NCBI RefSeq assembly: GCF_011634835.1
Contig: NZ_SIRP01000001.1
Span: 1,511,603 to 1,575,602, forward strand
Reading direction: 5' to 3'
From: Isoptericola sp. BMS4
GTDB lineage: Bacteria > Actinomycetota > Actinomycetes > Actinomycetales > Cellulomonadaceae
DNA: 64,000 nt
Shown here in pieces: positions 24,572 through 56,100 of this stretch. Position 1 is the stretch's first letter. Each line of letters starts with the position of its first letter. The translations under genes were made by a program, and so were the position numbers. The notes under the pieces were generated by a model. It saw nothing but the letters and a program-made list of their open reading frames with translations, was not told the DNA's origin and did not search any database.

Positions 24572-24632
24572 GCCGAACATGTGGTTGGTCCGGGATTCGT
24601 ATGCCGAATCCCGGACCAACCACATGTTCGGC
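24572..24632. repeat. Long perfect palindrome, 28-bp stem (family A, copy 1)
   Basis: Arms of 28 nt (left begins GCCGAACATGTGGTTGGTCC, ends GGATTCG) are perfectly complementary around loop TATGC. The same outer sequence recurs at 56040-56100. A partial right-arm repeat (ACATGTTCGGCGCCG) appears again at about 24643. Lies between the codirectional glyA and folD genes; could act as a terminator/attenuator or RNA-stability element. Confidence 0.9.
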
Positions 24633-24702
24633 GCCGAGGAACGACATGTTCGGCGCCGGGACAGCCACGGCGCACCGACGACCCTGAGGTGAGGACGCAC
24701 GG

Positions 24703-25584
24703 ATGACGGCACAGAAGCTGGACGGCAAGGCCACCGCGGCCGAGATCAAGGCGGAGCTGCGCGAGCGCGTGACGGCGCTGCGCGAGCGCGGCGTGACCCC
24801 CGGGCTGGGCACCCTGCTGGTGGGCGACGACCCCGGCTCGCAGTGGTACGTCGCGGGCAAGCACCGCGACTGCGCCGAGGTGGGCATCGAGTCCCTCCGT
24901 GAGGACCTGCCCGCGGACGCGACCCAGGCCGACATCGAGGCCGCCGTGCAGCGGCTCAACGACGACCCCGCCTGCACCGGGTTCATCGTGCAGCTGCCGC
25001 TGCCGCAGGGCATCGACACCAACCGGGTCCTCGAGCTCGTCGACCCGGCCAAGGACGCCGACGGCCTGCACCCGACCAACCTCGGTCGCCTCGTGCTGCG
25101 CGTCAACGAGCCGATCGACTCCCCGCTGCCGTGCACCCCGCGCGGCATCATCGACCTCATGCTGCGGCACGACGTCGACCTGACGGGCAAGGAGGTCGTC
25201 GTCCTCGGTCGCGGCGTCACCGTGGGCCGGCCCATCGGCCTGCTGCTGACGCGCCGAGCGGTCAACGCGACCGTCACGCTCACGCACACCGGCACGCGCG
25301 ACCTGCCGGAGCTCGTGCGGCGCGCCGACGTCGTCGTCGCGGGCGCGGGCGTCAAGGGGCTCGTGACGGCCGACATGGTCAAGCCGGGCGCGGTGCTCAT
25401 CGACGTCGGCGTCTCGCGCGAGACCGACCCGGAGACCGGGAAGTCGCGCGTCGTGGGCGACATCGACCCCGCGGCCCGCGAGGTCGCGTCGTGGTACTCG
25501 CCCAACCCCGGCGGTGTCGGGCCGATGACGCGCGCCATGCTGCTCGCGAACGTCGTCGAGACCGCGGAGCGCCTGGCCGTCTGA
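24703..25584 (+). CDS. folD: Methylenetetrahydrofolate dehydrogenase / cyclohydrolase
   Basis: 293 residues, ATG 24703. Bifunctional NADP-dependent enzyme converting 5,10-methylene- to 10-formyl-tetrahydrofolate. Key features: catalytic lysine K53 in [17 protein letters not shown], the DADGLHPTN loop, the nucleotide-binding [11 protein letters not shown], and the C-terminal [12 protein letters not shown]. Full length. It directly uses the product of glyA, and 10-formyl-tetrahydrofolate is the cofactor whose shortage the upstream ZTP riboswitch reports. Confidence 0.98.
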
Positions 25585-25611
25585 CTCGCCCGGGTCCGCC
25601 ACCATGGACAC

Positions 25612-26475
25612 ATGACCGCGGGAGACGGGAACGGCTGGACGGACGATCCGGGAACCCTGCTCCGGGTGGGGCGGGGGTTCCGGCTCGCCGACGTCGACCC
25701 GGAGGCGACGCCCGGGTACGAGGGGTCCAAGAAGGACGGCCGGACCGACCTCGCGGCTGGTGCACAGCGGCTCGGCGCGCTGCAGGAACGGCTCTTCGCG
25801 CAGAGCCGGGACGACCCGTGCGCGCCCGCCGTCCTGCTCGTCCTGCAGGGCATGGACTCCGCGGGCAAGGGCGGCGTCGTGCGGCACGTGGTCGGCGCTG
25901 CCGACCCGCAGGGGGTCCGCCTGGTGGCGTTCAAGGCGCCGACGCCCGCCGAGCTGGCGCACGATTTCCTCTGGCGCGTCGAGCGGGAGGTGCCCCCGGC
26001 CGGGTACGTCGGCGTCTTCGACCGGTCGCACTACGAGGACGTGCTCATCGGCAGGGTGCGGGGGCTCGCGCCCGCCGACGAGATCGAGCGCCGGTACGGC
26101 GCGATCACGGCGTTCGAGGACCGGCTCGTCGAGCGCGGCGTCCACCTGGTCAAGGTGATGCTGCACATCTCCGCGGACGAGCAGAAGCGGCGTCTCGGCC
26201 GGCGGCTCGCCCGACCGGACAAGCACTGGAAGTACCACCCGGAGGATGTCGACGAGAGGTTGCTGTGGCCGCGGTACATGGACGCGTTCCAGACCGCCCT
26301 CGAGCGGACCTCGACCGTGCGGGCTCCCTGGTTCGTGGTGCCCGCGAACGCGAAGTGGTATGCGCGCCTCGCGGTCCAGGCCCTGCTGGTCGGCACTCTG
26401 GCGGCCGTCGACCCGCGCTGGCCCGCCGCCACCTTCGACGTCGAGGCCGAGCGGGCACGCCTGGAAGCCACGTGA
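25612..26475 (+). CDS. PPK2-family polyphosphate kinase / nucleotide phosphotransferase
   Basis: 287 residues, ATG 25612. Walker A QGMDSAGKGG (around residues 79-88) and Walker B-like VFDRSHYEDVL plus the lid RRLARPDKHWKYHPED define PPK2 proteins, which phosphorylate nucleotides with polyphosphate. One-domain length matches class I/III enzymes; the preferred nucleotide cannot be decided by eye. Starts 27 nt after folD, so it may be cotranscribed. Confidence 0.92.
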   Translation: MTAGDGNGWTDDPGTLLRVGRGFRLADVDPEATPGYEGSKKDGRTDLAAGAQRLGALQERLFAQSRDDPCAPAVLLVLQGMDSAGKGGVVRHVVGAADPQGVRLVAFKAPTPAELAHDFLWRVEREVPPAGYVGVFDRSHYEDVLIGRVRGLAPADEIERRYGAITAFEDRLVERGVHLVKVMLHISADEQKRRLGRRLARPDKHWKYHPEDVDERLLWPRYMDAFQTALERTSTVRAPWFVVPANAKWYARLAVQALLVGTLAAVDPRWPAATFDVEAERARLEAT

Positions 26476-26565
26476 CCCACCGATGAGTCCGCGGCCGGGG
26501 CGCGGTCTCACCCGACACCACCGCCGGCCACCGGGGCCGGCGGGCGACGGCGACGGGAGACGACG

Positions 26566-27048
26566 ATGGTCGACGTCCGTACCCACCTGTGGTTCGGCAA
26601 CGACAAGGCCTACGAGGCCGCCGAGTTCTACGCCGCGCACATCCCGGACTCCTCCGTGGACGCCGTGCAGGTCGCGCCCGAGGGCGTGCCGGGCGTCGAG
26701 CCCGGGGCTCCGTTCGTGGTCGAGTTCACGCTCGCCGGGCACCGGGTGGTCGGGCTCAGCGCCGGTCCGGCGCTCCACCTGGACGAGGCGTTCAGCTTCT
26801 ACCTGCGTCTCGACGGCCAGGACGAGGTCGACCACTACTGGGAGGTCCTCACCTCGGGAGGCGGCGAGCCCGGCCCGTGCGGCTGGTGCAAGGACCGGTT
26901 CGGCGTCTCGTGGCAGGTGATCCCGAAGCAGCTCGAGGACCTGTGCGGCGACTACTCGACGCCGGCGAACCTGCGCGCGATGAACGCGATGCTGCAGATG
27001 GGCAAGATCGACGTCGCCGCGCTGGAGGCCGCCTACGCCGGGGAGTGA
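26566..27048 (+). CDS. VOC superfamily protein, PhnB-like (3-demethylubiquinone methyltransferase-type glyoxalase fold)
   Basis: 160 residues, ATG 26566. One PhnB-type double beta-alpha-beta-beta-beta unit: THLWFGNDKAYEAAEFYAAH at the start, SFYLRLDGQDEVDHYWEVL in the middle, and CGWCKDRFGVSWQVIP near the end. Members of this branch are usually of unknown function despite the methyltransferase name. GACGGGAGACGACG upstream gives only a modest ribosome site. Confidence 0.88.
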   Translation: MVDVRTHLWFGNDKAYEAAEFYAAHIPDSSVDAVQVAPEGVPGVEPGAPFVVEFTLAGHRVVGLSAGPALHLDEAFSFYLRLDGQDEVDHYWEVLTSGGGEPGPCGWCKDRFGVSWQVIPKQLEDLCGDYSTPANLRAMNAMLQMGKIDVAALEAAYAGE

Positions 27049-27110
27049 ACCGGGCGGCTCCCCGGGCACGTCGTCGCGTGTGACGGGGCGTGTCGGCGTC
27101 GTGTGATGGG

Positions 27111-27941
27111 ATGTGCGGCGTGCTGATCGTCGCCACCGCCAACGTCAACGGGATCCGCGCCGCCTTCCGGCGCCGCATGGACGCCTGGATCGCCGACCGG
27201 ACGCCCGACGTCCTCCTGCTGCAGGAGGTACGCGCGCCCGACGAGCTGGTGCGCGAGTACCTCGACGGGTGGCACGTGGCCCACGAGCCGTCCGAGCTCA
27301 AGGGGCGCGCCGGGGTCGCGGTCGCGTCGCGGTTCCCCCTGCGCGAGGTGCGCACCGGGCTGGCGCAGCACGGCCCGGCGGGGGAGCAGGAGCCGCCGGT
27401 GGACACCGGCCGGTGGATCGAGGCCGACGTCGTGCTGCCGGACGGCGGCCTGGTCACCGTCGTCTCCGCCTACCTGCACTCGGGGTCGACGAACCCGGGG
27501 CAGGAGCACACGATGGCGGCCAAGTACGCCCACCTGGACAAGGTGACGGCGCGGCTCGCCGAGCTGGGCGAGGCCGCCCACCCCGTGCTGACGGCGGGCG
27601 ACCTCAACATCGCCCACCGCGAGGTCGACATCGCGAACTGGAAGGGCAACCTGAAGAGCGCGGGGTTCCTGCCGGACGAGCGCGCCTACGTGGACCGGTG
27701 GACGGGTGAGCTCGGCTGGACGGACCTGGGCCGCGCGCACGGTGGGGACGGCCCCGGCCCGTTCACCTGGTGGACGTGGCGCGGCAAGGCGTACGAGAAC
27801 GACCGGGGCTGGCGCATCGACTACCAGCTCGCGAACGCGGCGCTGGCGGAGCGCGCCCTCAAGGTCGAGGTCGACCGGGCGCCGTCGTACGAGGAGCGCT
27901 GGAGCGACCACGCCGCGGTCGTCGCCACCTACGACCTCTGA
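27111..27941 (+). CDS. xth: Exodeoxyribonuclease III / AP endonuclease family
   Basis: 276 residues from ATG 27111; GTG 27120 (giving an MLIVATANVNG start usual for the family) is an equal alternative since neither has a strong ribosome site. The EEP-fold residues are present: ATANVNGIR, the metal-binding Glu in LLLQEVRAP, GDLNIAHREVD, the DYQLAN segment and the catalytic WSDHAAV. Cleaves abasic sites and 3' blocked ends in base-excision repair. Confidence 0.94.
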   Translation: MCGVLIVATANVNGIRAAFRRRMDAWIADRTPDVLLLQEVRAPDELVREYLDGWHVAHEPSELKGRAGVAVASRFPLREVRTGLAQHGPAGEQEPPVDTGRWIEADVVLPDGGLVTVVSAYLHSGSTNPGQEHTMAAKYAHLDKVTARLAELGEAAHPVLTAGDLNIAHREVDIANWKGNLKSAGFLPDERAYVDRWTGELGWTDLGRAHGGDGPGPFTWWTWRGKAYENDRGWRIDYQLANAALAERALKVEVDRAPSYEERWSDHAAVVATYDL

Positions 27942-27953
27942 GCGTCCCCGGAC

Positions 27954-28014
27954 GCTGTGGGTACGAAGAGTGCGGGATTCCAGGCCGGAATCCCGCACTC
28001 TTCGTACCCACAGC
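27954..28014. repeat. Long perfect palindrome, 28-bp stem (family B, copy 1)
   Basis: 28-nt arms (left begins GCTGTGGGTACGAAGAGTGC, ends GGGATTCC), loop AGGCC. The first 13 nt match the palindrome at 42029-42090. 12 nt after the xth stop; likely a terminator. The rest of the 228-bp gap to the next gene holds no ORF. Confidence 0.9.
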
Positions 28015-28169
28015 GGGTGGCCCGGGTGAACGTGTGACGGACACCACGCGAAGTGTTCATCTTCTCGTAACCTTCGATCCCTCGTGACTTCACCCCCCGC
28101 TGGTGTGCTCCTGGTGTCAGGTTCACAGCGGGCGTCGTCCGGCGCCCATCACCCACGGGGAGCCCCCGC

Positions 28170-29420
28170 ATGACCGACGTCGCCACGAGGCCGGCCGGCG
28201 CCACCGAGAACCCGTCCGAGGCCGTCGAGGGCACCGCGGCCACTCGCGCTCGCCTCGTCAGCCCCTTCGAGCGCCTCGGCCTGTCCGGCCGGGCGCTGAG
28301 CTGGGCGAACTGGCTCGGCGTCGTCGCCGGCGTCTACGTGCTGATCACCTCCGTCGAGCTCATCGGGTCCGGCTTCAAGGCCGCCACCGGAGGCACGGCG
28401 GAGTCGCTGTTCGCGTTCGCGTCGAACCCCTTCGTCGCACTGATGGTGGGCGTGCTGTTCACCGCCGCGACGCAGTCGAGCTCCACCACCACCTCGGTGA
28501 CGGTAGGCCTGGTGGCCGGCGGCCTGCCGATCGAGATCGCGATCCCCATGCTCATGGGCGCCAACATCGGCACCACCATGACGAACACGCTCGTGAGCCT
28601 CGGCATGGCGCGGGACCGCGACGACTTCCGCCGGGCGTTCTCCGCCGCGACGGTGCACGACTTCTTCAACCTCGTCGCCGTGGCGATCTTCCTGCCGCTC
28701 GAGCTGATGTTCGGCCTGCTGGAGCGCGCGTCGGGCTGGCTCGCGGACGCGACCGGAGGTTCCGACGGCGGGGTCGTCGCGAGCGTCTTCGCCGCGGCCG
28801 GGACCGTCGTGGACGCGGTGACGGAGCCGCTGGCGAACCTGCTCGAGTCCGGCACGTCGTTCCTGCCGGGCGCCTGGCACGGCATCGTCATGATCGTGCT
28901 CGGGATCGGTCTGATCCTGGCCGTCATCACCTGGCTCGGCAAGCTGCTCAAGGTGCTCCTCGTCGGGCGCGCGGCGCATGTGCTGCACCGGTCCGTCGGC
29001 CGCGGCCCGATGAGCGGCGTGGCCAGCGGCGCCGTCGTGACGATGATGGTGCAGTCCTCGTCGACGACGACCAGCCTCATGATCCCGCTCGCCGGGTCGG
29101 GCACCTTCACCCTGAAGCAGGTCTACCCGTTCACCGTCGGGGCGAACATCGGCACCACCATCACCGCGCTGATCGCGGCGTTCGCGTTCACCGGGGCCGA
29201 GGGCGAGCTGGCGCTGCAGGCGGCGTTCGTCCACGTGCTGTTCAACGTCTTCGCTGCGCTGGTCGTCTTCGGGCTGCCGTTCATGCGCCAGCTCCCGCTG
29301 CGCGGCGCGACCTGGCTCGGTAATCTCGCTGCCACCAACAAGGTGTGGGCGGCCGCGTGGACGCTCGGCGTGTTCGTCGGCATCCCGCTGGCCCTCATCG
29401 GCATCACCGCGGTGCTGTGA
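28170..29420 (+). CDS. Na/phosphate cotransporter family protein
   Basis: 416 residues, ATG 28170, GGGGAG upstream. Two inverted-repeat Na/Pi-cotransport domains, each with the signature QSSSTTTS (starting near residues 102 and 295) and GANIGTT downstream. About eight to nine hydrophobic segments. Lacks the C-terminal PhoU-like domain seen in some relatives. Predicted to import phosphate with sodium at the cytoplasmic membrane. GTTCA-containing sequences upstream hint at a PHO box, but the repeat spacing is not convincing. Confidence 0.92.
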   Translation: MTDVATRPAGATENPSEAVEGTAATRARLVSPFERLGLSGRALSWANWLGVVAGVYVLITSVELIGSGFKAATGGTAESLFAFASNPFVALMVGVLFTAATQSSSTTTSVTVGLVAGGLPIEIAIPMLMGANIGTTMTNTLVSLGMARDRDDFRRAFSAATVHDFFNLVAVAIFLPLELMFGLLERASGWLADATGGSDGGVVASVFAAAGTVVDAVTEPLANLLESGTSFLPGAWHGIVMIVLGIGLILAVITWLGKLLKVLLVGRAAHVLHRSVGRGPMSGVASGAVVTMMVQSSSTTTSLMIPLAGSGTFTLKQVYPFTVGANIGTTITALIAAFAFTGAEGELALQAAFVHVLFNVFAALVVFGLPFMRQLPLRGATWLGNLAATNKVWAAAWTLGVFVGIPLALIGITAVL

Positions 29421-29443
29421 GGCCGTACCGCGAGGGGGACCGG

Positions 29444-29749
29444 ATGACGAGCGAGCGCCCCGAGGACGCGGCCGCCGTCGAGCGCGAGCTCGAACGGATC
29501 GTCGCGGAGGCCGAGACGCGGCTCGCGGAGGTCCGCCGCGAGCTCGCCGAGCGGCGGCGCCGGTCCGCGGAGCACGCCGCCCAGCACGCCGAGATCGACC
29601 GGCTGGAGGAGCACCTCGCCAACGCGACCGTCCGCTGGGGCGAGGTGCGCGACTTCTTCGACGACGTCATCACGCACCTGCGGGCACCCGGCGACCCGCA
29701 GGAGCCTGAGGCCGAGGGCGGCACGGACCGCGACGACCCGCCGGCCTGA
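29444..29749 (+). CDS. Small hypothetical coiled-coil protein
   Basis: 101 residues, ATG 29444 after GAGGGGGA, 23 nt after the Na/Pi gene and probably cotranscribed. Residues 10-65 are charged and heptad-like (ELERIVAEAETRLAEVRREL), predicting a coiled coil. The tail is acidic/Pro rich. No recognised family. Confidence 0.72.
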   Translation: MTSERPEDAAAVERELERIVAEAETRLAEVRRELAERRRRSAEHAAQHAEIDRLEEHLANATVRWGEVRDFFDDVITHLRAPGDPQEPEAEGGTDRDDPPA

Positions 29750-29754
29750 GACGT

Positions 29755-29814
29755 GTTGTGGGCGTGATTTTGGCGCTATTCCGTCAGGAATAGCGCCAAA
29801 ATCACGCCCACAAC
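29755..29814. repeat. Long perfect palindrome, 28-bp stem (family C)
   Basis: 28-nt arms (left begins GTTGTGGGCGTGATTTTGGC, ends GCTATTCC), loop GTCA. Between convergent genes, so a bidirectional terminator is likely. A 12-nt piece of the left arm (GTTGTGGGCGTG) recurs at 53901-53912 without a partner arm. Confidence 0.9.
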
Positions 29815-29830
29815 GCTTCCGGGGAGAGTT

Positions 29831-31060
29831 TCAGAGGGCCGGGGCCGAGGGCGGCGCGAGCAGGAAGCCCGGCGCGGTGAGCCCGGCGTCGTCGAACGCC
29901 GCCTGCACCACCGTGACCACCGTCTCGACGTCCTCCACCCGCACCAGCGCGATGGCCGACCCGCCGAACCCGCCGCCGGTCATGCGGGCCCCCAGCGCCC
30001 CGGCGCCGACGGCGCTGTCCACCACGAGGTCGAGCTCGCGGGCGGACACCTCGTAGTCGTCGCGCAGCGAGGCGTGCGAGGCGTTCATCAGCGGCCCGAC
30101 CTCGGTGACCCGTCCGTCGCGCACCAGCGCGACGAACTGCGCCGTCCGGGCGATCTCCGTCACGACGTGGCGCACGCGGCGGCGCAGCACCCCGTCGGGG
30201 TCGTGGGGCTCCAGGGCCACCAGGGCACCCTCGAGCGCCTCCGGGGCGACGTCGCGCAGCGTCTCGACGCCCAGCAGCGACGCGGCCCGCTCGCACGACG
30301 CTCGCCGCTCGGCGTACTGCCCGTCCACGAGCGCGTGCTCCGCGCGGGTGTCCACGACGAGCAGCGTGAGGCGTGCGGGCTCGAGGTCGAACGGGACGGG
30401 GGTGCCCGACTCCAGGGCGGACAGGCCGGGGCGGCTGTCGACCAGCAACGCGTGCCCGGCGGTGCAGCGCAGCGACGCCGCCTGGTCCATCCCGCCCGTC
30501 GGGGCGCCCGCGACCTCGTTCTCCGCCCGCACGCAGGCGGACACCAGCGCCGCCCGGCCGGCGTCGTCGGCAGCCAGGCCCAGCTGGTGCACCTCGTCGA
30601 GCGCCACCGCCACGGCGCACTCCAGCGCCGCCGAGGACGACAGCCCCGCGCCGAACGGGACGCAGGAGTCCACGACCGCGTCGAAGCCGGAGACGTCGTG
30701 GCCGTCCTTCGCCAGCGCCCAGGCGACGCCCGCGACGTACGCGCCCCAGCCGGTCACGGCCCCGGGAGCCACGTCCGCGAGCCGGGTCTGCCAGAGCTCG
30801 CCCGGCGCTTGCGCGGACGCCAGCCGCACGACGTCGTCGTCGCGCCGGCGCAGCGCGACGTACGTCCGGTGGGGGAGCGCCGTCGGCAGCGCCAGGCCGC
30901 CGTTGTAGTCCGTGTGCTCGCCGATGAGGTTGACCCGCCCCGGCGCGGACCACACGCCGTCCGGCGCGCCGACCGCGGGGAAGGACCTGCCGAACAGGTC
31001 GCGCACGCGCTGCGCGCCGTCGTCGGGGGACCAGGACTCGAGCCAAGCGGGAGACGTCAT
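29831..31060 (-). CDS. galK: Galactokinase
   Basis: 409 residues from ATG 31060; an upstream in-frame start at 31111 would add 17 unlikely residues. GHMP-kinase motifs in order: GRVNLIGEHTDYNGG, PFGAGLSSSAALE (ATP loop), GGMDQAASL and TGGGFGGSAIAL. Phosphorylates galactose to galactose-1-phosphate in the Leloir pathway. No galT or galE next to it, so the pathway genes are dispersed. Confidence 0.96.
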   Translation of the reverse strand: MTSPAWLESWSPDDGAQRVRDLFGRSFPAVGAPDGVWSAPGRVNLIGEHTDYNGGLALPTALPHRTYVALRRRDDDVVRLASAQAPGELWQTRLADVAPGAVTGWGAYVAGVAWALAKDGHDVSGFDAVVDSCVPFGAGLSSSAALECAVAVALDEVHQLGLAADDAGRAALVSACVRAENEVAGAPTGGMDQAASLRCTAGHALLVDSRPGLSALESGTPVPFDLEPARLTLLVVDTRAEHALVDGQYAERRASCERAASLLGVETLRDVAPEALEGALVALEPHDPDGVLRRRVRHVVTEIARTAQFVALVRDGRVTEVGPLMNASHASLRDDYEVSARELDLVVDSAVGAGALGARMTGGGFGGSAIALVRVEDVETVVTVVQAAFDDAGLTAPGFLLAPPSAPAL

Positions 31061-31147
31061 GGCCCCCAGTATCACAGTGCCGGTCGGCGCCCCGGGGGCG
31101 CCGATCGGCACGTGAGAGCGTCGGAGCGTCTGGTCGTGGCGCGGACG

Positions 31148-32308: not shown

Positions 32309-32317
32309 GCCTCGATC

Positions 32318-32830
32318 CTACGAGGACGTCGGGCGCGGCCGGTCACCCGGTGGCCGGTCGCGCTCCTCCAGCTCCTCCAGCAGGCTCCGGATCTCCGACC
32401 GCACGAAGTCGCGCGTGGCGACCTCGCCCAGCGCGAGGCGCAGCGCCGCCATCTCCCGTGCCAGGTACTCCGTGTCGGCGAGGTTGCGCTCGGCGCGCTG
32501 CCGGTCCTGCTCCGCCGTCACACGGTCCCGGTCGTCCTGACGGTTCTGCGCCAGCAGGATCAGCGGGGCGGCGTAGCTCGCCTGCAGGGACAGCATCAGC
32601 GTCAGCGCCGTGAACCCGTTCGCGGCGCTGTCGAACCTCAGCTCCTGAGGACCCCAGGCGTTCCACGCCAGCCAGAGGGCGCAGAAGACCGTCAGATAGA
32701 CCAGGAACCGCGGCGTGCCGAGGAAACGGGCGATCGCCTCGGTGGCCTTGCCCACCGCGTCCTGGTCCATCCGCGGGCGGGGGATGAAGGTGCGCCGGCT
32801 CTCCTTCGGCAGGTCCAGGCGGTCAGTCAC
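32318..32830 (-). CDS. DUF1003 membrane protein
   Basis: 170 residues from GTG 32830, overlapping the upstream gene by 8 nt (GTGACTGA), so translationally coupled. Two hydrophobic segments (RFLVYLTVFCALWLAWN and LTLMLSLQASYAAPLILLAQ) and the NRQDDRDR motif define DUF1003. The C-terminal helix is charged. Function unknown. The pairing with an MgtE-N/CBS protein is a recurring actinobacterial arrangement. Confidence 0.9.
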   Translation of the reverse strand: MTDRLDLPKESRRTFIPRPRMDQDAVGKATEAIARFLGTPRFLVYLTVFCALWLAWNAWGPQELRFDSAANGFTALTLMLSLQASYAAPLILLAQNRQDDRDRVTAEQDRQRAERNLADTEYLAREMAALRLALGEVATRDFVRSEIRSLLEELEERDRPPGDRPRPTSS

Positions 32831-34094: not shown

Positions 34095-34130
34095 CGCACC
34101 TCCTCCCCGCGCGACACCCCGACCTTCGGC

Positions 34131-34355
34131 GCTCCTGCGCGGGGGCTCGTCGCGTCCACGGTGTCGTGCTGGCGTGGCCGCTGCGGTGCCTCGCTGTGGC
34201 CGCTGCGGTGCCTCGCTGCGGTGCGCCTCGTACCTCGGCGTCCCTGCGCGGGGGCTCCTCGCGTCCACGGTGTCGTGCTGGCGTGGCCGCTGCGGTGCCT
34301 CGCTCCGGTGCGCCTCGTACCTCGGCGTCCCCGCGCGGGGGCTCCTCGCGTCCAC
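34131..34355. repeat. 87-bp tandem repeat in divergent intergenic region
   Basis: A unit running from TACCTCGGCGTCC through GCGCGGGGGCTCCTCGCGTC to GGTGCGCCTCG is present about 2.5 times: starts at 34231 and 34318 are exactly 87 bp apart. An earlier copy from about 34123 carries an internal 22-bp duplication (GTGGCCGCTGCGGTGCCTCG). It fills most of the 364 bp between the MgtE-like and stress-protein genes. Not coding as far as can be judged. Confidence 0.88.
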
Positions 34356-34458
34356 GCGCGCCAGCCTACGTGGGCGACGCCCCCCGTTCCTGGTGGCAGG
34401 CCAGCGAGGCGCGCGCGATCTGCTGGTGCCGGTGCCGACCGTGGTACAGACTGGGCGA

Positions 34459-35298: not shown

Positions 35299-35307
35299 GG
35301 CACCACC

Positions 35308-35375
35308 CCGGGTCGGCAGTTCGTCCCCGGGTCGGCACACAAGTCTGCCGACCCGGGGACGGAGTGCCGACCCGG
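35308..35375. terminator. Nested long hairpin between convergent genes
   Basis: The module CCGGGTCGGCA occurs twice on the left, separated by GTTCGTCC, and its complement TGCCGACCCGG twice on the right, giving a stem of about 30 bp with one small mismatch and an 8-nt loop. Similar in size to the five long palindromes but built by module duplication. Confidence 0.85.
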
Positions 35376-35383
35376 CCCGCGGG

Positions 35384-39508: not shown

Positions 39509-39620
39509 GCCGCCGGTCGCGGGATGTCGTGTCGCGAGGCACGCCGCTCGGCCGCTCGTTCCTCGCGTCCTCCTGCCAGGCCCAGCCAGCCTCTCGACAC
39601 GACATCCCGTGACCGGCGGC
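39509..39620. repeat. 32-bp inverted repeat with 48-nt loop
   Basis: Left arm 39509-39540 (GCCGCCGGTCGCGGGATGTC...) and right arm 39589-39620 pair over 32 bp with two mismatches. It dominates the 268-bp gap between marC and the gntR gene. Could be a large terminator or a degenerate mobile remnant; no ORF of note inside. Confidence 0.85.
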
Positions 39621-42028: not shown

Positions 42029-42090
42029 GCTGTGGGTACGAGACACGCCGCCGCCCCATCGAGGGCGGCGGCGTGTCTCGTACCCACAGC
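42029..42090. repeat. Long perfect palindrome, 28-bp stem (family B, copy 2)
   Basis: 28-nt arms (left begins GCTGTGGGTACGAGACACGC), loop CATCGA. First 13 nt equal those of the palindrome at 27954. 19 bp downstream of the rhlE stop (minus strand), so it can terminate rhlE transcripts before the DUF1905 gene. Confidence 0.9.
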
Positions 42091-48764: not shown

Positions 48765-51700
48765 TGACCGGTCAGGCCCCCGGCGAACCGCGCCACGAAC
48801 AAGGCGGCGACCCGCGCCCCGAGCCCGACTGGGCGATCCTCGGCGACGTGCTCGACGGCGCCGGCCGCGACGCCGACCTCGGTTTCCCCGAGCTCGCGGA
48901 CCTCGCCCCGCCCGCGACGGGGCACGCCGTCGCGCCGGGAGACGACGGCCTCGTCGGTGCCGAGGACGCCGCCGTCCCGGCCGCCGCCCCCGCGCCGCGG
49001 CTGTCCGCGCGCGAGATCGCGGAGATGCTGGGCCGGCCGAGCCCGACCGACGAGCAGGTCGCCGTGATCGAGGCGCCCCTCGAGCCGGCGCTCGTCGTCG
49101 CGGGCGCGGGCTCGGGCAAGACGGAGACGATGGCGGCCCGGGTGGTCTGGCTCATCGCGAACGAGCTGGTCGCCCCCGAGGACGTGCTGGGGCTGACGTT
49201 CACGCGCAAGGCGGCGGGCGAGCTCACCACCCGCGTCACCGCCCGGCTGGCGCAGCTCGCCCGCGCCCAGGGCCGCCCGACGTCGGGCCTGGACCTGCTG
49301 GCCCGGCCCACGGTGGCCACGTACAACGCCTACGCGGCCTCGCTCGTGGCCGACCACGGGCTGCGCCTCGGGATCGAGCCGGGGTCGAGGTTGCTCGGTG
49401 AGGCCAACCAGTGGCAGCTCGCGGCCCAGGTCGTCGAGTCCTGGGCGGACGACCTCGGCACCGACAAGGCCGTCAGCACCGTCGTGGGCGCCGTCATCGC
49501 GCTGTCCGGGGCGCTGGGAGAGCACCTCGTAGGCGTCGACGAGGTGCGCGCCGAGCTGGCCGACCTGATGGACCACCTCGACGCCCTGCCGCTGGGCGAG
49601 AAGCAGAAGCGGCGGACCAAGCCGATCCAGCAGCTCATCGACTCGGTGGCCGAGCGCGGGCGCCTGCTCGACCTCGTGGCCGAGTACCGCCGCCGCAAGC
49701 GGGTGGCCGACTCGCTCGACTTCGGCGACCAGATCGCGTTCGCCGCCGAGCTCGCGCGCCAGGTCCCGGCCGTGGGGGCGACCGAGCGGGCGCGGTACCG
49801 GGTGGTGCTGCTCGACGAGTACCAGGACACGTCGTACGCCCAGGTGGAGCTGCTCGCGGGGCTGTTCGCCGACGGCCACGCCGTCACGGCCGTGGGCGAC
49901 CCGCACCAGTCGATCTACGGGTGGCGCGGCGCCTCCGCGTCCGGGCTGGCGCGGTTCCCCGAACGCTTCCGCACCGCGGGCGGGGCGCCCGCGGCCGTGC
50001 GCTACCTGAGCACGTCGTGGCGCAACGATGCCGCGGTGCTGGCCGCCGCGAACGTCACCGCGGCACCCCTGCGCGGGCTGGCGCGGCGGACGGGCACCGG
50101 CGTGGACGTCCCGCCGCTCGACCTGCGTCCCGGTGCCGGTACGGGTGCGGTCACCGCCCACGTCGCGGCCACGATCGAGGAGGAGGCCGAGGCGGCCGCC
50201 AAGTTCGTGGCGTCCCGGTGGCGGCGCGCCACCCGCCCCGACGGCTCGGACCGGGTGACGGCGGCGGTGCTCTGCCGGGCGCGCTCGCAGTTCGTGGCCG
50301 TCGAGGTGGCCCTGCGGCGCCGGGGCCTGCCCGTGGAGGTCGTCGGGCTCGGCGGGCTGCTGTCCACCCCGGAGGTGGTCGACGTCGTCGCGCTGCTGGA
50401 GTCCGTGCACGACCCCTCCCGCGGTGACTCGCTGCTGCGGCTGCTGACCGGGCCGCGGGTGAACCTCGGCGCCGCGGACCTGCACGCCCTCGGGTCGTGG
50501 GCGGCGGACCTCGCCCGCGCCGACGGCGCACGCCCCGGCCGGCCCGGCGACGCCCCGCACGGCGCACCGGGCGACGGGGCGGGGCCGGGCGACGTCACGG
50601 ACCCCGACGACGACGCGCCGCGCGTCGTGGAGGGCGACGTCGTCGACCACCGCTCCATCGTCGACGCCCTGGACGACCTGCCCGAACCCGGCCGCGCGGC
50701 GCGCGACGGGAGGGCCCTCACCCCGGACGGGCACCGCCGGCTCACCGCGCTCGCGCGGCTCCTGCGCGATCTGCGCGGGGTGACGTACCTGTCGCTGCCC
50801 GAGCTCGTCGTCAGCGCCGAGCGCGCCCTGGGGCTCGACGTCGAGGTCGCCACGGCGCAGGTGCTGGCCGACGCGCTGCCGACCGAGGGGGCGGGGCCCG
50901 CAGTGCACTCAGCGCCCGGGCTGCCGTCCGGGGCGGGCGTGAGCCAGCGCGGGCGCGAGCACCTCGACGCGTTCCGGGACGTCGCGGCGAGCTTCGCTCA
51001 GTCGGCGGACGTCGCCACGCTCGGCGCGTTCCTCGCGTGGCTCGGGGTCGCGGGCGACCAGGAGCGCGGCCTGGACATGCCGGTGCGCGAGCCCGACCCG
51101 GATGCCGTGCAGGTCATCACGGCGCACGCCGCCAAGGGCCTCGAGTGGGACGTCGTCGCCGTCCCCGGCCTCGTCGACGGGATCTTCCCGAGCCAGGCCG
51201 AGTCCCAGCAGGGGCGCACGGACAGCGGGTGGCTCACCGACCTCGCCGCGCTGCCGTACCACCTGCGCGGGGACGCGGAGGACCTGCCCGACTTCACGTG
51301 GCGCGACGCCGCCGACACGAAGGACCTCGCGGAGCGCCGCGACGAGTTCCGGGCGGCGTCCGGGGAGCACCGGCTCGCGGAGGAGCGGCGGCTGGCCTAC
51401 GTGGCCTTCACCCGCGCCCGCCGCGAGCTCCACCTCACCGCGCACTGGTGGGGGACGGGCAGCGGCCCCCGGCGTGCGTCGCCGTTCCTGGCCGAGCTCG
51501 CCGAGGCGGGCGTCGTGGACGGCAGGGGCTGGGCCGCGCCCCCCGGCCCGGACGACACGAACCCGCGGGACGCTCTCGAGGTGACGGCCCGCTGGCCGGC
51601 CGACGAGCTGCCCCGCACTCCCGGCGCCCCCGGGCCGGACGGCCCCGCGCCGGAGGACCCCGGACCCGGCAGCCCGCGCGAGGTGCTGCGGGCCACGGCC

Positions 51701-52486
51701 GCGCAGGTGACGGCGGCGGCGCGCGGCGGCGCCGAGCCCCGCCCGGGCGTGCTGCTCGACCCGGGCGGCCGCGACCTCGTGTCGCTGACGCGGGTGCTGC
51801 TCGCGGAGCGGGCCGACCGGGACGCGCACCAGGTCGTCATGCCCGCGCACGTGTCGGCCTCCGGTCTGGTGCGGCTCGCCGCGGACCGGGACGCGTTCGC
51901 CCTGCAGCTGCGCCGGCCGGTACCGACGGAGCCGACGGTGCACGCGCGCCGCGGGACCCGGTTCCACGAGTGGGTGGAGCGGTTCTACACGTCGTCGTCG
52001 CTCGTCGACGTCGACGACCTGCCGGGCGCGGAGGACGGCGAGGTGCCGGCCGACGTGGACCTCGAGACCCTGCGCTCCCGGTTCCTCGACTCGCCCTGGG
52101 CGGCACGCACGCCCCTCGCCGTCGAGGTGGACGTGGAGACGCCCGTCGGCGGTGTCATGCTCCGCTCGCGCATCGACGCCGTGTTCGCCGACCCGGACGC
52201 GCCCGACGCGCGCCCAGGGGAGGCCCCCGCCGTCGTCGTGGTCGACTGGAAGACGGGACGGGAACCGGCCGACGCGGCGGCGCGGGCGGCGCGCGAGGTG
52301 CAGCTCGCCGTCTACCGGCTGGCGTGGGCGCGGTACACCGGCACGCCGGTCGAGCGGGTCTCCGCGGCGTTCTGCTACGTCCCCACCGGCACGACCGTGC
52401 GCCCGGAGCGCCTGCTCGGCGAGGCCGAGCTGGAGGCCCTGGTCCGCGGGGACCGACCCGCGGACCAGGGCCGTCACCAGCGGTAG
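48764..52486 (+). CDS. adnB: AdnB: UvrD-like helicase / RecB-family nuclease subunit
   Basis: 1240 residues, ATG 48764 inside TGATG. Functional-looking motor: GAGSGKTE (K119), FTRKAAGELTTR, LLDEYQDTSYAQ, GDPHQSIYGWRGAS, HAAKGLEWD and VAFTRARREL. C-terminal nuclease with LRSRIDAV and D1161-WK1163-TG followed by EVQLAVYRL. With AdnA it forms the two-motor, two-nuclease machine; here only AdnB seems able to drive translocation. Its last 13 bases overlap the convergent cyanase gene. Confidence 0.95.
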   Translation: MTGQAPGEPRHEQGGDPRPEPDWAILGDVLDGAGRDADLGFPELADLAPPATGHAVAPGDDGLVGAEDAAVPAAAPAPRLSAREIAEMLGRPSPTDEQVAVIEAPLEPALVVAGAGSGKTETMAARVVWLIANELVAPEDVLGLTFTRKAAGELTTRVTARLAQLARAQGRPTSGLDLLARPTVATYNAYAASLVADHGLRLGIEPGSRLLGEANQWQLAAQVVESWADDLGTDKAVSTVVGAVIALSGALGEHLVGVDEVRAELADLMDHLDALPLGEKQKRRTKPIQQLIDSVAERGRLLDLVAEYRRRKRVADSLDFGDQIAFAAELARQVPAVGATERARYRVVLLDEYQDTSYAQVELLAGLFADGHAVTAVGDPHQSIYGWRGASASGLARFPERFRTAGGAPAAVRYLSTSWRNDAAVLAAANVTAAPLRGLARRTGTGVDVPPLDLRPGAGTGAVTAHVAATIEEEAEAAAKFVASRWRRATRPDGSDRVTAAVLCRARSQFVAVEVALRRRGLPVEVVGLGGLLSTPEVVDVVALLESVHDPSRGDSLLRLLTGPRVNLGAADLHALGSWAADLARADGARPGRPGDAPHGAPGDGAGPGDVTDPDDDAPRVVEGDVVDHRSIVDALDDLPEPGRAARDGRALTPDGHRRLTALARLLRDLRGVTYLSLPELVVSAERALGLDVEVATAQVLADALPTEGAGPAVHSAPGLPSGAGVSQRGREHLDAFRDVAASFAQSADVATLGAFLAWLGVAGDQERGLDMPVREPDPDAVQVITAHAAKGLEWDVVAVPGLVDGIFPSQAESQQGRTDSGWLTDLAALPYHLRGDAEDLPDFTWRDAADTKDLAERRDEFRAASGEHRLAEERRLAYVAFTRARRELHLTAHWWGTGSGPRRASPFLAELAEAGVVDGRGWAAPPGPDDTNPRDALEVTARWPADELPRTPGAPGPDGPAPEDPGPGSPREVLRATAAQVTAAARGGAEPRPGVLLDPGGRDLVSLTRVLLAERADRDAHQVVMPAHVSASGLVRLAADRDAFALQLRRPVPTEPTVHARRGTRFHEWVERFYTSSSLVDVDDLPGAEDGEVPADVDLETLRSRFLDSPWAARTPLAVEVDVETPVGGVMLRSRIDAVFADPDAPDARPGEAPAVVVVDWKTGREPADAAARAAREVQLAVYRLAWARYTGTPVERVSAAFCYVPTGTTVRPERLLGEAELEALVRGDRPADQGRHQR

Positions 52487-52923
52487 TCGAGGAACTTGCC
52501 GTCGAACGTCACCACGACGCGGTCGCCGTCCGGGTGCGGGCGCCGGGCGACGTCGACCCGGAAGTTGATCGCCGACATGATGCCGTCGCCGAACTCCTCG
52601 TGGATCAGCTCCTTGAGCGCCGGGCCGTAGACGGCGAGCGCCTCCGTGAAGCGGTAGATCGTCGGGTCGGTCAGGACGGCGTCGTCGCGTGTGCGGGACG
52701 GCTGCACGCACAGCGCCTCCGCGACGTCGTCGCCGAGGCCCAGCAGCGCGCAGGCCTCCTTGGCCTGCTCCGCGCGCATCGGGTGCTGCCCCAGCAGCGC
52801 CGCCGTCGTCCAGACGACGGGGGCGCCCACCGCGTCGGCGATCTCCTGCCAGGTGCGCCCCGAGCGCAGTCGGGCGGTCACCACCTGCTCGGCCGCGGCG
52901 GCCTTCGACATGATCGGGTCCAT
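52474..52923 (-). CDS. cynS: Cyanate hydratase (cyanase)
   Basis: 149 residues, ATG 52923 with GGAGGAGC 4 nt upstream. Converts cyanate and bicarbonate to ammonia and carbon dioxide. Catalytic residues R91, E94 and S117 keep the spacing of E. coli R96, E99 and S122, in DPTIYRFTEAL and EEFGDGIMSAINF. Downstream of the FNT-family transporter gene on the same strand (45 bp gap), so probably one operon that imports and detoxifies or uses cyanate. The 13-bp tail overlap with adnB suggests compact insertion in an otherwise conserved block. Confidence 0.96.
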   Translation of the reverse strand: MDPIMSKAAAAEQVVTARLRSGRTWQEIADAVGAPVVWTTAALLGQHPMRAEQAKEACALLGLGDDVAEALCVQPSRTRDDAVLTDPTIYRFTEALAVYGPALKELIHEEFGDGIMSAINFRVDVARRPHPDGDRVVVTFDGKFLDYRW

Positions 52924-52968
52924 CGATGCTCCTCCTGTCGTGGTGCGGGTGCTGCCGGTCGGCCGCGG

Positions 52969-53829
52969 TCAGGCGACCGGTGCGGCCTCACGCTCGTCCG
53001 CGGCGGGCTCGACGGGGGCGGGGCGCCGGCGTTCGGGCCGCGTGCGGTAGTGCGTGAGGTACAGCGGCAGGCCGACGAACGTCAGACCGCCCACGAGGTT
53101 GCCGAGCACGGTCGGCAGCTCGTTCCACAGCAGGTAGTCGGAGATCGTGAAGTCACCGCCGAGGAGCAGGCCGGAGGGGAACAAGAACATGTTCACCACG
53201 GAGTGCTCGAAGCCCATGTAGAAGAACAGGAACACCGGCATCCACATCACGACGACCTTGCTGACCGTGTCCTTGGACATGAGGAACGCCACCACACCCG
53301 TGGACACCATCCAGTTGCAGAGGACGCCGCGCACGAACAGCGTGAGCATGCCGGCGGCGCCGTGGTCGGCGTACCCGACCGTGCGGCCCTCGCCGATGGT
53401 GCCGATCGCCTGGCCGATCTCGTTCGGCGGGGTGGAGAACCCGTAGGTGAACGTGATCGCCATGAGGATGGCGACGGTGAACGCGCCCGCGAAGTTGCCG
53501 CAGAACACCAGGCCCCAGTTGCGCCACATGCCGCCCCAGGTGGCGCCCGGGCGGCGGGCGATGACGGCGAACGGCACCAGGGTGAACACGCCCGTGAGCA
53601 GGTCGAAGCCCATCAGGTAGAGCATGATGAAGCCGATCGGGAAGAACGCTGCCCCGACCAGCGGGTTGCCGGTGCTGACGGTGATGGTCACGGCCATCGC
53701 CGCGGCGAGCGCGAGGACGGCGCCGCCCATGAACGACCGGATCAGCGTGTCCCGGGTCGACATGAACAGCTTCTTCTCGCCCGTGGCGACCATCTGTTCC
53801 ACGAAGTCCTGCGGTGCGACGTACGACAT
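52969..53829 (-). CDS. Formate/nitrite transporter (FNT) family channel
   Basis: 286 residues, ATG 53829. Six hydrophobic segments with FNT marks: the N-terminal amphipathic stretch, GNFAGAF, VRGVLCNWMVSTGVV and the signature MGFEHSVVNMFLFP with the central histidine. FNT channels conduct small monovalent anions such as formate, nitrite and hydrosulfide. Linkage to cyanase suggests cyanate or bicarbonate as cargo here, which is inference. The C-terminal tail is polar. Confidence 0.93.
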   Translation of the reverse strand: MSYVAPQDFVEQMVATGEKKLFMSTRDTLIRSFMGGAVLALAAAMAVTITVSTGNPLVGAAFFPIGFIMLYLMGFDLLTGVFTLVPFAVIARRPGATWGGMWRNWGLVFCGNFAGAFTVAILMAITFTYGFSTPPNEIGQAIGTIGEGRTVGYADHGAAGMLTLFVRGVLCNWMVSTGVVAFLMSKDTVSKVVVMWMPVFLFFYMGFEHSVVNMFLFPSGLLLGGDFTISDYLLWNELPTVLGNLVGGLTFVGLPLYLTHYRTRPERRRPAPVEPAADEREAAPVA

Positions 53830-53994
53830 GGCGACCCTCCCGGAGTCATGGACGGCGGTCCGTGCTGGGGCCGATCCTCGCCACCGGGCGTTGTGCCCAC
53901 GTTGTGGGCGTGTGAGTTCTGTGTTTCGAGATGCGCACGACGGCGCGGCGACTCCGGTGCGGTGCCGGGACGTCGTCGGCGTCCCGGGGCACCG

Positions 53995-54918
53995 TCAGGC
54001 GGGCGCGTCCTCGCGGGTCGCCTCGTCGAGGTCGGCGAGCATCGCCTCGGCGTCCTCGACGACGTCGGGCAGGCCGCGGCGCACGCCGTGCAGCAGCCAG
54101 CGCGCCAGCGCCAGCTCGCCGACGAGCAGGGCGCGGTCGACCAGCCGGGTGTCGTGCAGCTCGGTGCGGCGCAGCTGGTACGCCTCCATGATCGAGTCCA
54201 CGGCCTCGGGCGGGGCGGCGGCGAGGAGCCAGGCGAGGTCGTCCGCCGGGTCGGCCACCCGGGACTCCGACCAGCCGCTCACGCTCGTCACGCGCCCGCG
54301 CGAGACGAGCATCTGGTCCGGTGCCAGGTCGCCGTGCACCACCACGGGCTGGAAGCGCCACAGCGCGACGTCCTCGAGCGCTGCCTCCCACCGGCGCAGC
54401 AGCGTCGGCGGCACCTTGCCGGTCGCGGCGGCCTCGTCGAGCTCGACCAGGCGGCGCTCGCGGTACTCGGTGGCGGTGTACGAGGGCAGCCCGCACGACT
54501 CGACGACGGACGCGGGCAGCTCGTGAACCGCCGCCAGCGTGCGGCCCAGGTCCGCGGCGAGGCCGGGGCCGGGCCGCAGCGAGTCGAGGTCGAGCGGGTC
54601 GCCCGTGACGTGCTGGTGCACGACGGCGCGGCCGCCCTCGGGCAGCAGCGCGTACCCGGCGACCTGCGGCACGGTGAAGGGCAGGACGCCCGCCTCGACG
54701 TACAGGTGGAGTGCCTCCAGCAGCTCGATCTCCGCCTCGAGCGCGGCGCCGGCCATCGTCGTGCGGGGCGCGCGCACCAGCCAGTCGCGGTCGTCCGCGG
54801 CGGTGACGACGGCGACGTCGTAGTCCCCCGGCACCTCCTCGGGACGGACCGACCGGGCGTCGAGCCCCGGGACGGCGGCCGTCGCGAGCGCGGCGAGGGC
54901 GAGCGGGCTGCGTGGCAC
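53995..54918 (-). CDS. Divergent aminoglycoside/macrolide phosphotransferase-fold protein
   Basis: 307 residues from GTG 54918; TACGGT on the minus strand lies 6 nt upstream, so leaderless. The kinase-like fold is shown by VVVHGDLAPDQMLV and VADPADDLAWLL. Two catalytic positions are changed: the Asn of HGDxxxxN is Gln, and the metal-binding Asp of the usual IDW motif reads SGW. It may be a pseudokinase or have a non-antibiotic role. A resistance function should not be assumed. Divergent from nudC. Confidence 0.85.
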   Translation of the reverse strand: MPRSPLALAALATAAVPGLDARSVRPEEVPGDYDVAVVTAADDRDWLVRAPRTTMAGAALEAEIELLEALHLYVEAGVLPFTVPQVAGYALLPEGGRAVVHQHVTGDPLDLDSLRPGPGLAADLGRTLAAVHELPASVVESCGLPSYTATEYRERRLVELDEAAATGKVPPTLLRRWEAALEDVALWRFQPVVVHGDLAPDQMLVSRGRVTSVSGWSESRVADPADDLAWLLAAAPPEAVDSIMEAYQLRRTELHDTRLVDRALLVGELALARWLLHGVRRGLPDVVEDAEAMLADLDEATREDAPA

Positions 54919-55026
54919 GCGACCACCGTAGCGGTGCCGGGGGCGCCGCCGTCGCACCACGCGCGGGCGGCGGGACAGGTACTGGCAGGTGCCGGGGGCC
55001 GGGCCCGGTGTCGGTACGGTCGTCGG
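54919..55026. promoter_or_regulatory. Back-to-back leaderless promoters (APH-like gene / nudC)
   Basis: TACGGT occurs on the minus strand at 54930-54925 and on the plus strand at 55015-55020, each exactly 6 nt before a GTG start. Neither gene has a ribosome binding site. Confidence 0.65.
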
Positions 55027-56022
55027 GTGACTGCACCCGCCTGGCTCCCCGACCTGTCGTACACGCGCGCGTCGCACGACCGCGCCGCCGCCCGCCGCAC
55101 GGAGCCGGACCTGCTCCCGCGGCTGCTCGGCGATACCCGCACCCGCGTGCTGGTGGTGCACCGCGGGCGCGTCGCGGCCGACGCCGGGGGAGAGCCCCTG
55201 CTGCTGGCCCCGGCCGACGTCGCGGGCCTGCCCGCGGACCCGGACGCCGAGGCGCCGCACGAGGCGGGGCACCGGTGGCTGTTCCTCGGCGAGGACGACG
55301 ACGGCGCGTACCTGGGGCTGGTGCTGCCCGACGCCGCGGACACCGAGGCGGTGGACATCGAGGGCGTCACGCCGTCGTCCCCGGCGGCGCGGCTGGTGCG
55401 GACCCACGCGTGGGCCGGGCTGCGTGCGCTGGGCGGGCACGCCCTCGACGCGCTCGCGGCGGAGACGGTGGCGCTCGCGGGGTGGCATGCCGCCCACCAG
55501 CGGTGCCCGCGGTGCGGCGAGCCGACGGTCGTCGAGCAGGCCGGCTGGGTGCGCCGGTGCGTCGCCCAGGACCTCGAGATCTACCCGCGCACCGACCCCG
55601 CGGTCATCATGGCCGTCGTCGACGACGAGGACCGGCTCCTGCTCGGGCACGCGGCGCACTGGCCCGAGGGCCGGTACTCGACGCTCGCGGGCTACGTCGA
55701 GCCCGGCGAGGGACTGGAGCAGGCGGTGCGCCGCGAGGTCGCCGAGGAGACGGCGGTCGTGGTGGGCGACGGCCCCGGCGACGTGGAGTACCGCGGGAGC
55801 CAGCCGTGGCCCTTCCCCGCGTCCCTGATGCTCGGCTTCCGCGCCCGCGCCACCGGGACCTCGGTGCGGGTCGACGGCGTCGAGGTCACGCAGGCCCGCT
55901 GGTTCACGCGCGACGAGCTCGCCGCCGCGGTCCGCTCGGGGGAGGTGGGGCTGCCGAGCCGCCCGTCCATCGCCCGGGCGCTGGTCGAGGAGTGGTTCGG
56001 CGGTGACCTGCCGGGGGCGTGA
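55027..56022 (+). CDS. nudC: NAD-capped RNA / NADH pyrophosphatase
   Basis: 331 residues, GTG 55027, leaderless. N-terminal domain, zinc-ribbon region (CPRCGEPTVVEQAGWVRRC: only three Cys visible, so zinc binding is doubtful), then a Nudix box GYVEPGEGLEQAVRREVAEET and the NudC-specific SQPWPFPASLMLGF. Hydrolyses NADH and removes NAD caps from RNA. Position next to mycoredoxin and uvrD2 matches Rv3199c. Confidence 0.94.
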   Translation: MTAPAWLPDLSYTRASHDRAAARRTEPDLLPRLLGDTRTRVLVVHRGRVAADAGGEPLLLAPADVAGLPADPDAEAPHEAGHRWLFLGEDDDGAYLGLVLPDAADTEAVDIEGVTPSSPAARLVRTHAWAGLRALGGHALDALAAETVALAGWHAAHQRCPRCGEPTVVEQAGWVRRCVAQDLEIYPRTDPAVIMAVVDDEDRLLLGHAAHWPEGRYSTLAGYVEPGEGLEQAVRREVAEETAVVVGDGPGDVEYRGSQPWPFPASLMLGFRARATGTSVRVDGVEVTQARWFTRDELAAAVRSGEVGLPSRPSIARALVEEWFGGDLPGA

Positions 56023-56039
56023 CCATGCGATCCCCGGGC

Positions 56040-56100
56040 GCCGAACATGGGGTTGGTCCGGGACTCAGCAGCTGAGTCTCGGACCAACCCCATGTTCGGC
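56040..56100. repeat. Long palindrome, 29-bp stem (family A, copy 2)
   Basis: Left arm begins GCCGAACATGGGGTTGGTCC; right arm complementary except one G-T, which is a G-U pair in RNA; loop 3 nt (CAG). Outer sequence nearly the same as at 24572. Between convergent nudC and mycoredoxin genes: bidirectional terminator role likely. Confidence 0.9.

Follow-up and report, generated by a model that had tools for sequence, protein, structure and literature searches.

What maintains or spreads the long hairpin-forming palindromes that recur through the genome of Isoptericola sp. BMS4? The question is raised by a window of 64,000 nucleotides (C1:1511603-1575602, G+C 74%) taken from a genome of 4.43 Mb in 47 contigs. 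This genome is designated G000, the other genomes of the genus set are G001-G017, and L followed by a number denotes a fetched locus. The reading favoured below, held to be rather probable, is that these dispersed hairpin repeat families have, or had, a partner gene encoding an AbiEi/nuclease-like protein that spreads or maintains them.

A preliminary description of the window had reported five palindromes, and these are indeed present, in the sequence groups it proposed (GCCGAACATG twice, GCTGTGGGTACGA twice, GTTGTGGGCGTG once). A palindrome of the same class at 35308-35375, and a third GCCGAACATG arm beside the 24572 palindrome, were absent from it. The features are the following, arm similarity being the ungapped similarity of the outer 26 nt, with a cut-off of 0.8:

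24572..24632, no strand assigned: family-1 palindrome (GCCGAACATG), perfect 28-bp stem, loop of 5 nt; arm similarity of at least 0.8 to a flank of its own partner gene (L321).
24645..24654, minus strand: third family-1 arm (CATGTTCGGC on the plus strand), 12 nt beyond the 24572 palindrome, 22-bp period; read from the sequence.
27953..28015, no strand assigned: family-2 palindrome (GCTGTGGGTACGA), perfect 29-bp stem, loop of 5 nt; no match of at least 0.8 to a partner-gene flank.
29755..29814, no strand assigned: family-3 palindrome (GTTGTGGGCGTG), perfect 28-bp stem, loop of 4 nt; matches its own gene flank.
35308..35375, no strand assigned: family-4 palindrome (CGGGTCGGCA twice per arm); arm similarity of 0.86 to a gene flank of G002.
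42029..42090, no strand assigned: family-2 palindrome, subtype GAGACACGCCG, loop of 6 nt; arm similarity of 0.81 to a partner-gene flank of G008 (L318).
53901..53912, plus strand: 12-nt match to the family-3 arm with no partner arm, a remnant or a chance match.
56040..56100, no strand assigned: family-1 palindrome with one mismatched pair, loop of 3 (or 1) nt; arm similarity of at least 0.8 to its own gene flank (L321).

The five palindromes first described reach hairpin scores of 26-29, far beyond chance: when the 64-kb window was simulated 20 times with a first-order Markov model, no hairpin scored above 15, and 12 simulations gave none at the score threshold of 12. Stems of 28-29 bp, loops of 3-6 nt and arms that are identical complements had been claimed for all five. 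Pairing is perfect over 28 bp from the outer ends in four, that at 27954-28014 gaining a 29th pair when read as 27953-28015; in the fifth, 56040-56100, the 22nd pair from the outer end is mismatched. The solo arm announced at 53901 is a genuine match, of merely 12 nt. No Rfam family was found at gathering scores within positions 24000-56500 of the window.

These palindromes are members of larger dispersed families. In an anatomy sample of 1.26 Mb, formed by the window and three 400-kb stretches of G000, sorting by eye gives about ten or more sequence families of long palindromes, spanning ~54-80 bp, shorter terminator-like hairpins aside. Their density varies between genomes: 59 in 1.26 Mb of G000 vs three in 400 kb of G011. 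The GCTGTGGGTACGA motif occurs 27 times in G000 (once for the reversed-pattern control) and GCCGAACATG 98 times (control six), the latter often as inverted pairs at offset 51. Family-2 pairs (TGTGGGTACG...CGTACCCACA) number 23 in G000, with no occurrence in the other 17 genomes of the genus that were searched. Family-1 pairs number 24 in G000, three each in G004, G009 and G011, and one to four in four genomes of two other genera, being present in eight of the 221 genomes of the taxonomic family overall. Such species-specific families, together with the orthologous sites lacking palindromes described below, bear out the suggestion of non-autonomous dispersed elements. Length is a property of each family: the distance between the outer motifs of family 2 stays at 57-58 bp, also in the copies at 1481941 and 2088537, whose centre of ~18 nt is not palindromic. 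The fixed length of the preliminary description is correct only within a family, lengths varying from one family to the next, and the sequence is not free in the outer arm, where it is conserved. A broad stem-length distribution had been proposed as a mark of ordinary terminators, and the distribution is broad overall and tight family by family.

The variation within the arms points to the hairpin itself. Alignments covered 17 of the 23 family-2 places, being restricted to 58-nt copies and leaving out two duplicates, and the 14 of the 24 family-1 places whose sequence was listed. The outer ~10-13 bp of each arm are conserved and the inner pairs vary with strong compensation; since copies were collected by exact outer motifs, the outer pairs are invariant by construction. 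In family 2, 16 of the 28 pairs are altered on both sides and 95.6% of cells are paired, for a covariation score of 0.477 (shuffled mean 0.123; matched by none of 500 shuffles). The corresponding values for family 1 are 14 of 28 pairs, 97.7% of cells and a score of 0.266 (shuffled mean 0.086; none of 500). These compensatory pairs support what had been put forward as selection on, or production of, a hairpin. Template switching in replication (quasi-palindrome correction) could create the arm symmetry with no selection on the hairpin, and the counts of changed cells speak for it: those changed on both sides outnumber those changed on one side and still paired by 79 vs 4 in family 2 and 30 vs 5 in family 1, so that G-U intermediates are rare. 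However, the two family-2 copies with a non-palindromic centre keep their 58 bp uncorrected, and the process accounts for symmetry, not for dispersal or a partner gene. In place of hairpin selection it is fairly improbable; since dispersal and the partner gene lie beyond it, it may be an addition and not a rival.

Family 1 is in addition polar: in 13 of the 16 copies of 61 bp, the best match to a third arm is found on one side, at a distance of exactly 12 nt from the palindrome. This arm has at most two mismatches in 10 in 10 of the 16 copies, as compared to 129 of 3000 random places at any spacing tried. Some families, such as that of 35308-35375, carry a motif twice per arm at ~20 bp, and the third arm of family 1 stands at 22 bp; these repeated motifs give the impression of protein sites stacked along a single face of the DNA. 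To note, family-2 palindromes at G000:C1:1019625-1019746 and 1316058-1316273 form tandem or close pairs of identical sequence, and local duplication is therefore suggested. Pattern hits beyond Promicromonosporaceae-type genera are mostly non-palindromic by eye. Among the few exceptions, L153 and L172 are palindromes of 55-56 bp with the same CCGAACATG ends, found in Nocardioides alcanivorans and a Sphingomonas, a resemblance that may be due to chance, convergence or transfer. Six pattern hits in viral contigs are, by eye, not long palindromes.

The position of the palindromes relative to genes is far from random. Fifty-three of 67 long palindromes are intergenic, the other 14 being not clearly so with crude gene calls, and 41 of the 53 lie at most 40 nt from a gene 3' end, vs 15% of random intergenic 61-mers (p 1e-23). 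This is the terminator-like site that had been suspected, and because the palindromes sit at gene 3' ends a terminator function is likely. Could they then be ordinary long terminators, kept for termination only, with families arising by duplication or gene conversion and with nuclease-like genes that merely own terminators? Short terminator-like hairpins are placed in much the same way (29 of 41 near a gene 3' end), and hairpins of ordinary appearance occupy the same sites in several relatives. Termination alone, however, sits poorly with a species-specific family 2, with conserved outer arms, with the extra third arm that family-1 units bear outside the hairpin, and with matched copies located 5' as well as 3' of a single gene class. 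We regard this account as decidedly unlikely.

The gene class in question gave profile-search hits in all 18 genus genomes, at 4-12 each. Its association with palindromes was measured on 51 loci (30 from this search, 20 picked from its remaining list, and L271), the controls being 347 genes of 230-420 amino acids in the G000 stretches, partner genes left in. Palindromes flank 30 of the 51 loci on both sides (28 with an identity of at least 0.6), 18 on one side and three on neither; among the controls, four are flanked on both sides, three of them at that identity. Matched flanking palindromes are thus found at 28 of 51 loci vs 3 of 347 controls (Fisher p 9e-26), and at 22 of 42 when the nine seed loci are removed. 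The three control positives are unrelated genes lying between copies of the high-copy families 1 or 3. When 19 loci were added and the hairpin criterion was relaxed, 42 of 70 loci proved to be flanked on both sides, 39 of them matched at 0.6 or above (32 of 61 minus the seeds). Global alignment identity is a poor family measure in GC-rich palindromes (random mean 0.56), and because 22% of random pairings attain 0.6, arm similarity was used in addition: left and right flanks agree at 0.8 or above in 32 of the 39 pairs, vs 0.9% of 1000 random pairings. In the 39 matched loci, the 3' palindrome lies between -52 and +53 nt of the stop codon; in 35 of them the 5' palindrome precedes the estimated start by 68-173 nt.

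Families 1 and 3 of the window each have a partner gene in G000, and a frameshifted copy is also present:

G000:C1:3850861-3851784: family-3 partner gene, between two family-3 copies.
C1:3939637-3940623: family-1 partner gene, followed by a family-1 palindrome beyond its stop and preceded by an imperfect one.
G000:C1:71378-72416: frameshifted copy of a partner gene, between two TGACGTAGCG palindromes.

The imperfect upstream palindrome of the second gene was missed by the hairpin scan and recognised as an exact arm pair. One of the genes lying between neighbouring family-1 copies is a partner gene, and the sole PF04480 hit at E<=1e-3 in G000 sits between two family-3 palindromes. Dispersed copies may also be compared with gene flanks, here those of the fetched loci only: of 58 in G000, 24 match a flank of their own genome at 0.8 or above and 14 only that of a relative, a level reached by none of 290 shuffled arms. 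In the stretches of relatives, five of 17 palindromes match any flank, three of these their own.

The partner proteins are ~300-340 amino acids long, and E, D and E-x-D-G columns are invariant in an alignment of the nine seeds; in the L166 protein, D replaces the E of E-x-D-G. At the N-terminus, the PADLOC AbiEi profile matches all nine seed proteins, and Pfam AbiEi_4 is above its cut-off in two and below it in four more. The C-terminus appears nuclease-like, of DUF559/MTES_1575 and PD-(D/E)XK/Vsr-like type: DUF559 is above cut-off in one of the nine seeds, MTES_1575 is below cut-off in four, and the best PDB profile match is the 'Mobile intron protein' 3r3p, a weak one (E 0.019). We take 3r3p to be the Vsr-like homing endonuclease I-Bth0305I, presumably of the family called EDxHD. 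None of seven partner proteins matched an NCBIfam profile. The L166 protein had no tblastn match in phage and plasmid collections, and the nine seeds had no PHROG match at E<=0.01; carriage of the gene by phages or plasmids is not supported by these comparisons.

One partner-gene locus differs in state between relatives. The family-3 gene lies between a permease gene and a universal-stress-protein (USP) gene, where it nearly fills the gap of 1136 nt in G000, and it is present at this locus in 11 of the 17 informative genomes. Both palindromes are detected beside it in G000, G002, G007, G011 and G014. In G006 a lone related palindrome stands with no gene, and in G010 an imperfect lone palindrome, missed by the scan, is visible by eye; G003, G004 and G013 hold only other hairpins there. 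The dN/dS (non-synonymous to synonymous substitution) ratios range from 0.10 to 0.56 over the 55 pairs of 11 orthologues, the G017 copy, in two reading frames, being compared over 173 residues: the gene is under purifying selection. The pattern fits inheritance in place, with loss that would proceed by recombination between the repeats, and gain of the gene into a lone palindrome is a possible alternative.

The palindrome sites of the window itself differ between relatives. Orthology of the copies in all relatives, which the preliminary description would have taken as a sign of ordinary terminators, is not seen. Thus, at the 27954 site no hairpin was detected 3' of the same gene in G001, G002, G007 and G010, and G003, G004 and G006 have different downstream genes and long hairpins of other sequence. 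As a side observation, G004 and G006 (L214, L216) carry a GGTCGAGCCYGTCGAGACC-type palindrome behind the orthologue of the gene preceding 27954; two GGTCGAGCCYGTCGAGACC-type copies of G004 (L251:8423, L252:2450) had no partner-gene flank match at 0.8. Nine relatives possess both anchors of the 24572 site. Palindromes stand there in G005, G009 and G010, each different in sequence, and that of G009 has an arm similarity of 1.00 to the flank of G009's own gene. The six others have none: the genes nearly abut in G001, G002, G004, G013 and G017, and G003 has none in the inspected gap. By this comparison, insertion at the site is not clean. At 29755 and 42029, several relatives carry other hairpins, by eye ordinary-looking or of other families. 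At the 35308 site, G003, G009, G011 and G013 hold an extra partner gene of ~1 kb, enclosed by two palindromes that are their own and closely resemble each other, and G016 and G017, with larger gaps, likewise hold partner genes.

A homing-like element would account for several of these facts. The nuclease would cut gene-less palindromes, repair from another copy would convert them, the gene unit would home into lone palindromes, and families would be homogenised within a genome. A single site does hold either a gene with two palindromes or a lone palindrome, depending on the genome; the 24572 site of G009 bears G009's own family sequence; and the weak match to 3r3p points the same way. New sites without homology would, however, need another route, and the gene at the permease/USP locus looks inherited in place. 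Homing of this kind appears rather unlikely.

Movement by a conventional transposase encoded elsewhere was also considered, the palindromes being elements of the miniature inverted-repeat transposable element (MITE) kind, with arms resembling its terminal repeats and the nuclease-like gene a hitch-hiker. Several transposon ends have a TGT...ACA style. Two of the families begin with TGTGGG, and conserved ends with species-specific abundance are as expected of such elements. Yet the conserved arm reaches beyond TGT, and the genes with which the families pair belong to a single class. The Y1 transposase profile (PF01797), the one transposase family searched for, had no hit in 28 genomes including G000, the control genomes being positive in 5 of 14. 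Hitch-hiking of this sort is very improbable. Elsewhere in the window, at 39509-39620, an inverted repeat with 32-nt arms, 94% complementary and 48 nt apart, lies outside the families studied.

Several observations weigh against a partner protein that spreads or maintains the palindromes. Eight of the 70 partner loci have no palindrome and 20 have only one. Among the best 29 distant class loci, palindromes flank eight on both sides, five on one side and 16 on neither, only seven having matched pairs. At the permease/USP locus, five of the 11 gene-bearing genomes (G001, G008, G009, G012, G016) show no flanking palindrome at the cut-off, and G017 has a single one. The perfect palindrome of G005 (L360) at this locus abuts an assembly gap (N run, poly-C/G), which makes its standing as a lone palindrome doubtful; the gap is probably an assembly failure at the repeat, and draft genomes may therefore show too few repeats of this sort. 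Twenty of the 58 dispersed palindromes, including that at 27954, match no gene flank at 0.8 or above, and none of the 11 partner-gene profile hits in G000 adjoins a listed family-2 palindrome. At the 24572 site, the palindrome of G010 fits the gene flank of G009 (0.90) better than its own (0.86). Neither clean insertion junctions nor target-site duplications were seen by eye at orthologous sites. Stem mismatches on the strand expected to be transcribed, where one is, are G-U in 18 cases vs A-C in 11, which is non-significant (p 0.13). The profile matches behind the nuclease assignment are mostly below curated cut-offs, the PDB match being weak. Finally, a role of the enzyme in moving or maintaining the repeats is inferred.

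How might an AbiEi/nuclease-like protein sustain such families? The AbiEi of Streptococcus agalactiae is described as binding, in its own promoter, two perfectly inverted 11-bp repeats that are 27 nt apart and can be extended to 23-bp arms with four mismatches (PMC3985639). Because this geometry resembles that of the palindromes, of which typically one stands ~70-170 nt upstream of the partner gene and one at its stop codon, the AbiEi-type winged-helix N-terminus is proposed to read the conserved outer arms, as AbiEi does at its own promoter repeats, and the nuclease-like C-terminus to act there. DNA cutting at the arms would then spread or maintain the family. Copies would settle behind stop codons; as the hairpin may act there to end transcription, the host would select for the stem, leaving its inner sequence to drift through compensated changes. 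For the most part the gene would stay at its ancestral site by descent; where its two palindromes recombine, a single copy would be left behind, and families would persist as orphans once their gene is gone. The role of the enzyme could be movement in the manner of REP-associated tyrosine transposases (RAYTs, REP standing for repetitive extragenic palindrome), homing conversion, or gene regulation only; the last is made less likely by the scattering of palindromes over gene 3' ends.

Hairpins formed by REP pairs (REPINs) and RAYTs provide the closest parallel. They are described as dispersed extragenic palindromes with conserved ends and a hairpin centre of conserved length bearing compensatory changes, the RAYTs being single-copy and vertically inherited (PMC3116915, PMC8049555); a RAYT gene is flanked by its own repeats (PMC3733652). 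The Isoptericola families are likewise extragenic dispersed palindromes with compensatory changes in the hairpin centre. Their gene also lies between repeats of its own and is passed on at a fixed site, a similarity of form only, as the protein is unrelated: an AbiEi/DUF559-type protein replaces the Y1 transposase. In addition, the five first-described window copies begin, by eye, with GCCG, GCTG or GTTG instead of a GTAG or CGTC tag, and their arms are nearly perfect over 28 bp. Membership of the REP/RAYT system was rejected on the lack of its defining enzyme, PF01797, in all 28 genomes. CGTC-tagged REPs, which are described as palindromic, from five other phyla, without a RAYT of their own and apparently without a dedicated enzyme gene (PMC3733652), are similar in being palindromic repeats with no RAYT, and differ by the partner gene and by the CGTC end that the window copies lack. 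With AbiE type IV toxin-antitoxin systems are shared the AbiEi-type N-terminal domain and a long inverted repeat upstream of the gene itself, whereas the nuclease-like C-terminus and the genome-dispersed repeats set the present proteins apart, and the permease/USP gap of G000 appears too small for a second gene of AbiEii type. The C-terminal domain has a weak profile similarity, through 3r3p, to EDxHD/Vsr-like homing endonucleases such as I-Bth0305I. In contrast to these enzymes, no copy of the partner gene was encountered within an intron or intein; it is palindrome-flanked, and its cleavage activity is a prediction.

Among the titles and abstract openings listed from the open-licence literature, none links DUF559, MTES_1575 or AbiEi-nuclease proteins with dispersed palindromes. 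The partnership of this protein class with dispersed palindromes is here called categorically new, its architecture paralleling that of REPIN-RAYT, the well-studied case of a bacterial enzyme that coexists over the long term with a palindrome population. A tentative extension, possible more than probable, is that AbiEi-nuclease proteins drive 'selfish terminators' in a sequence-specific way, placing copies of their own palindromes at gene 3' ends in a good part of the Actinomycetes, while co-evolution of protein and palindrome renews the families from one species to the next; this would be a second, independently evolved enzyme-palindrome partnership. It draws on profile matches in 144 of the 197 class genomes and on the matched pairs at seven of the best 29 distant loci.

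If the reading favoured here is true, enzyme-palindrome partnerships would have evolved more than once, in this instance with an unrelated nuclease-like protein, and DUF559/MTES_1575 proteins, now annotated as of unknown function, would gain a context. The families would offer many natural protein-palindrome pairs for studying the co-evolution of proteins and their DNA sites, and part of the long hairpins found behind genes in GC-rich actinobacteria would be mobile in origin.

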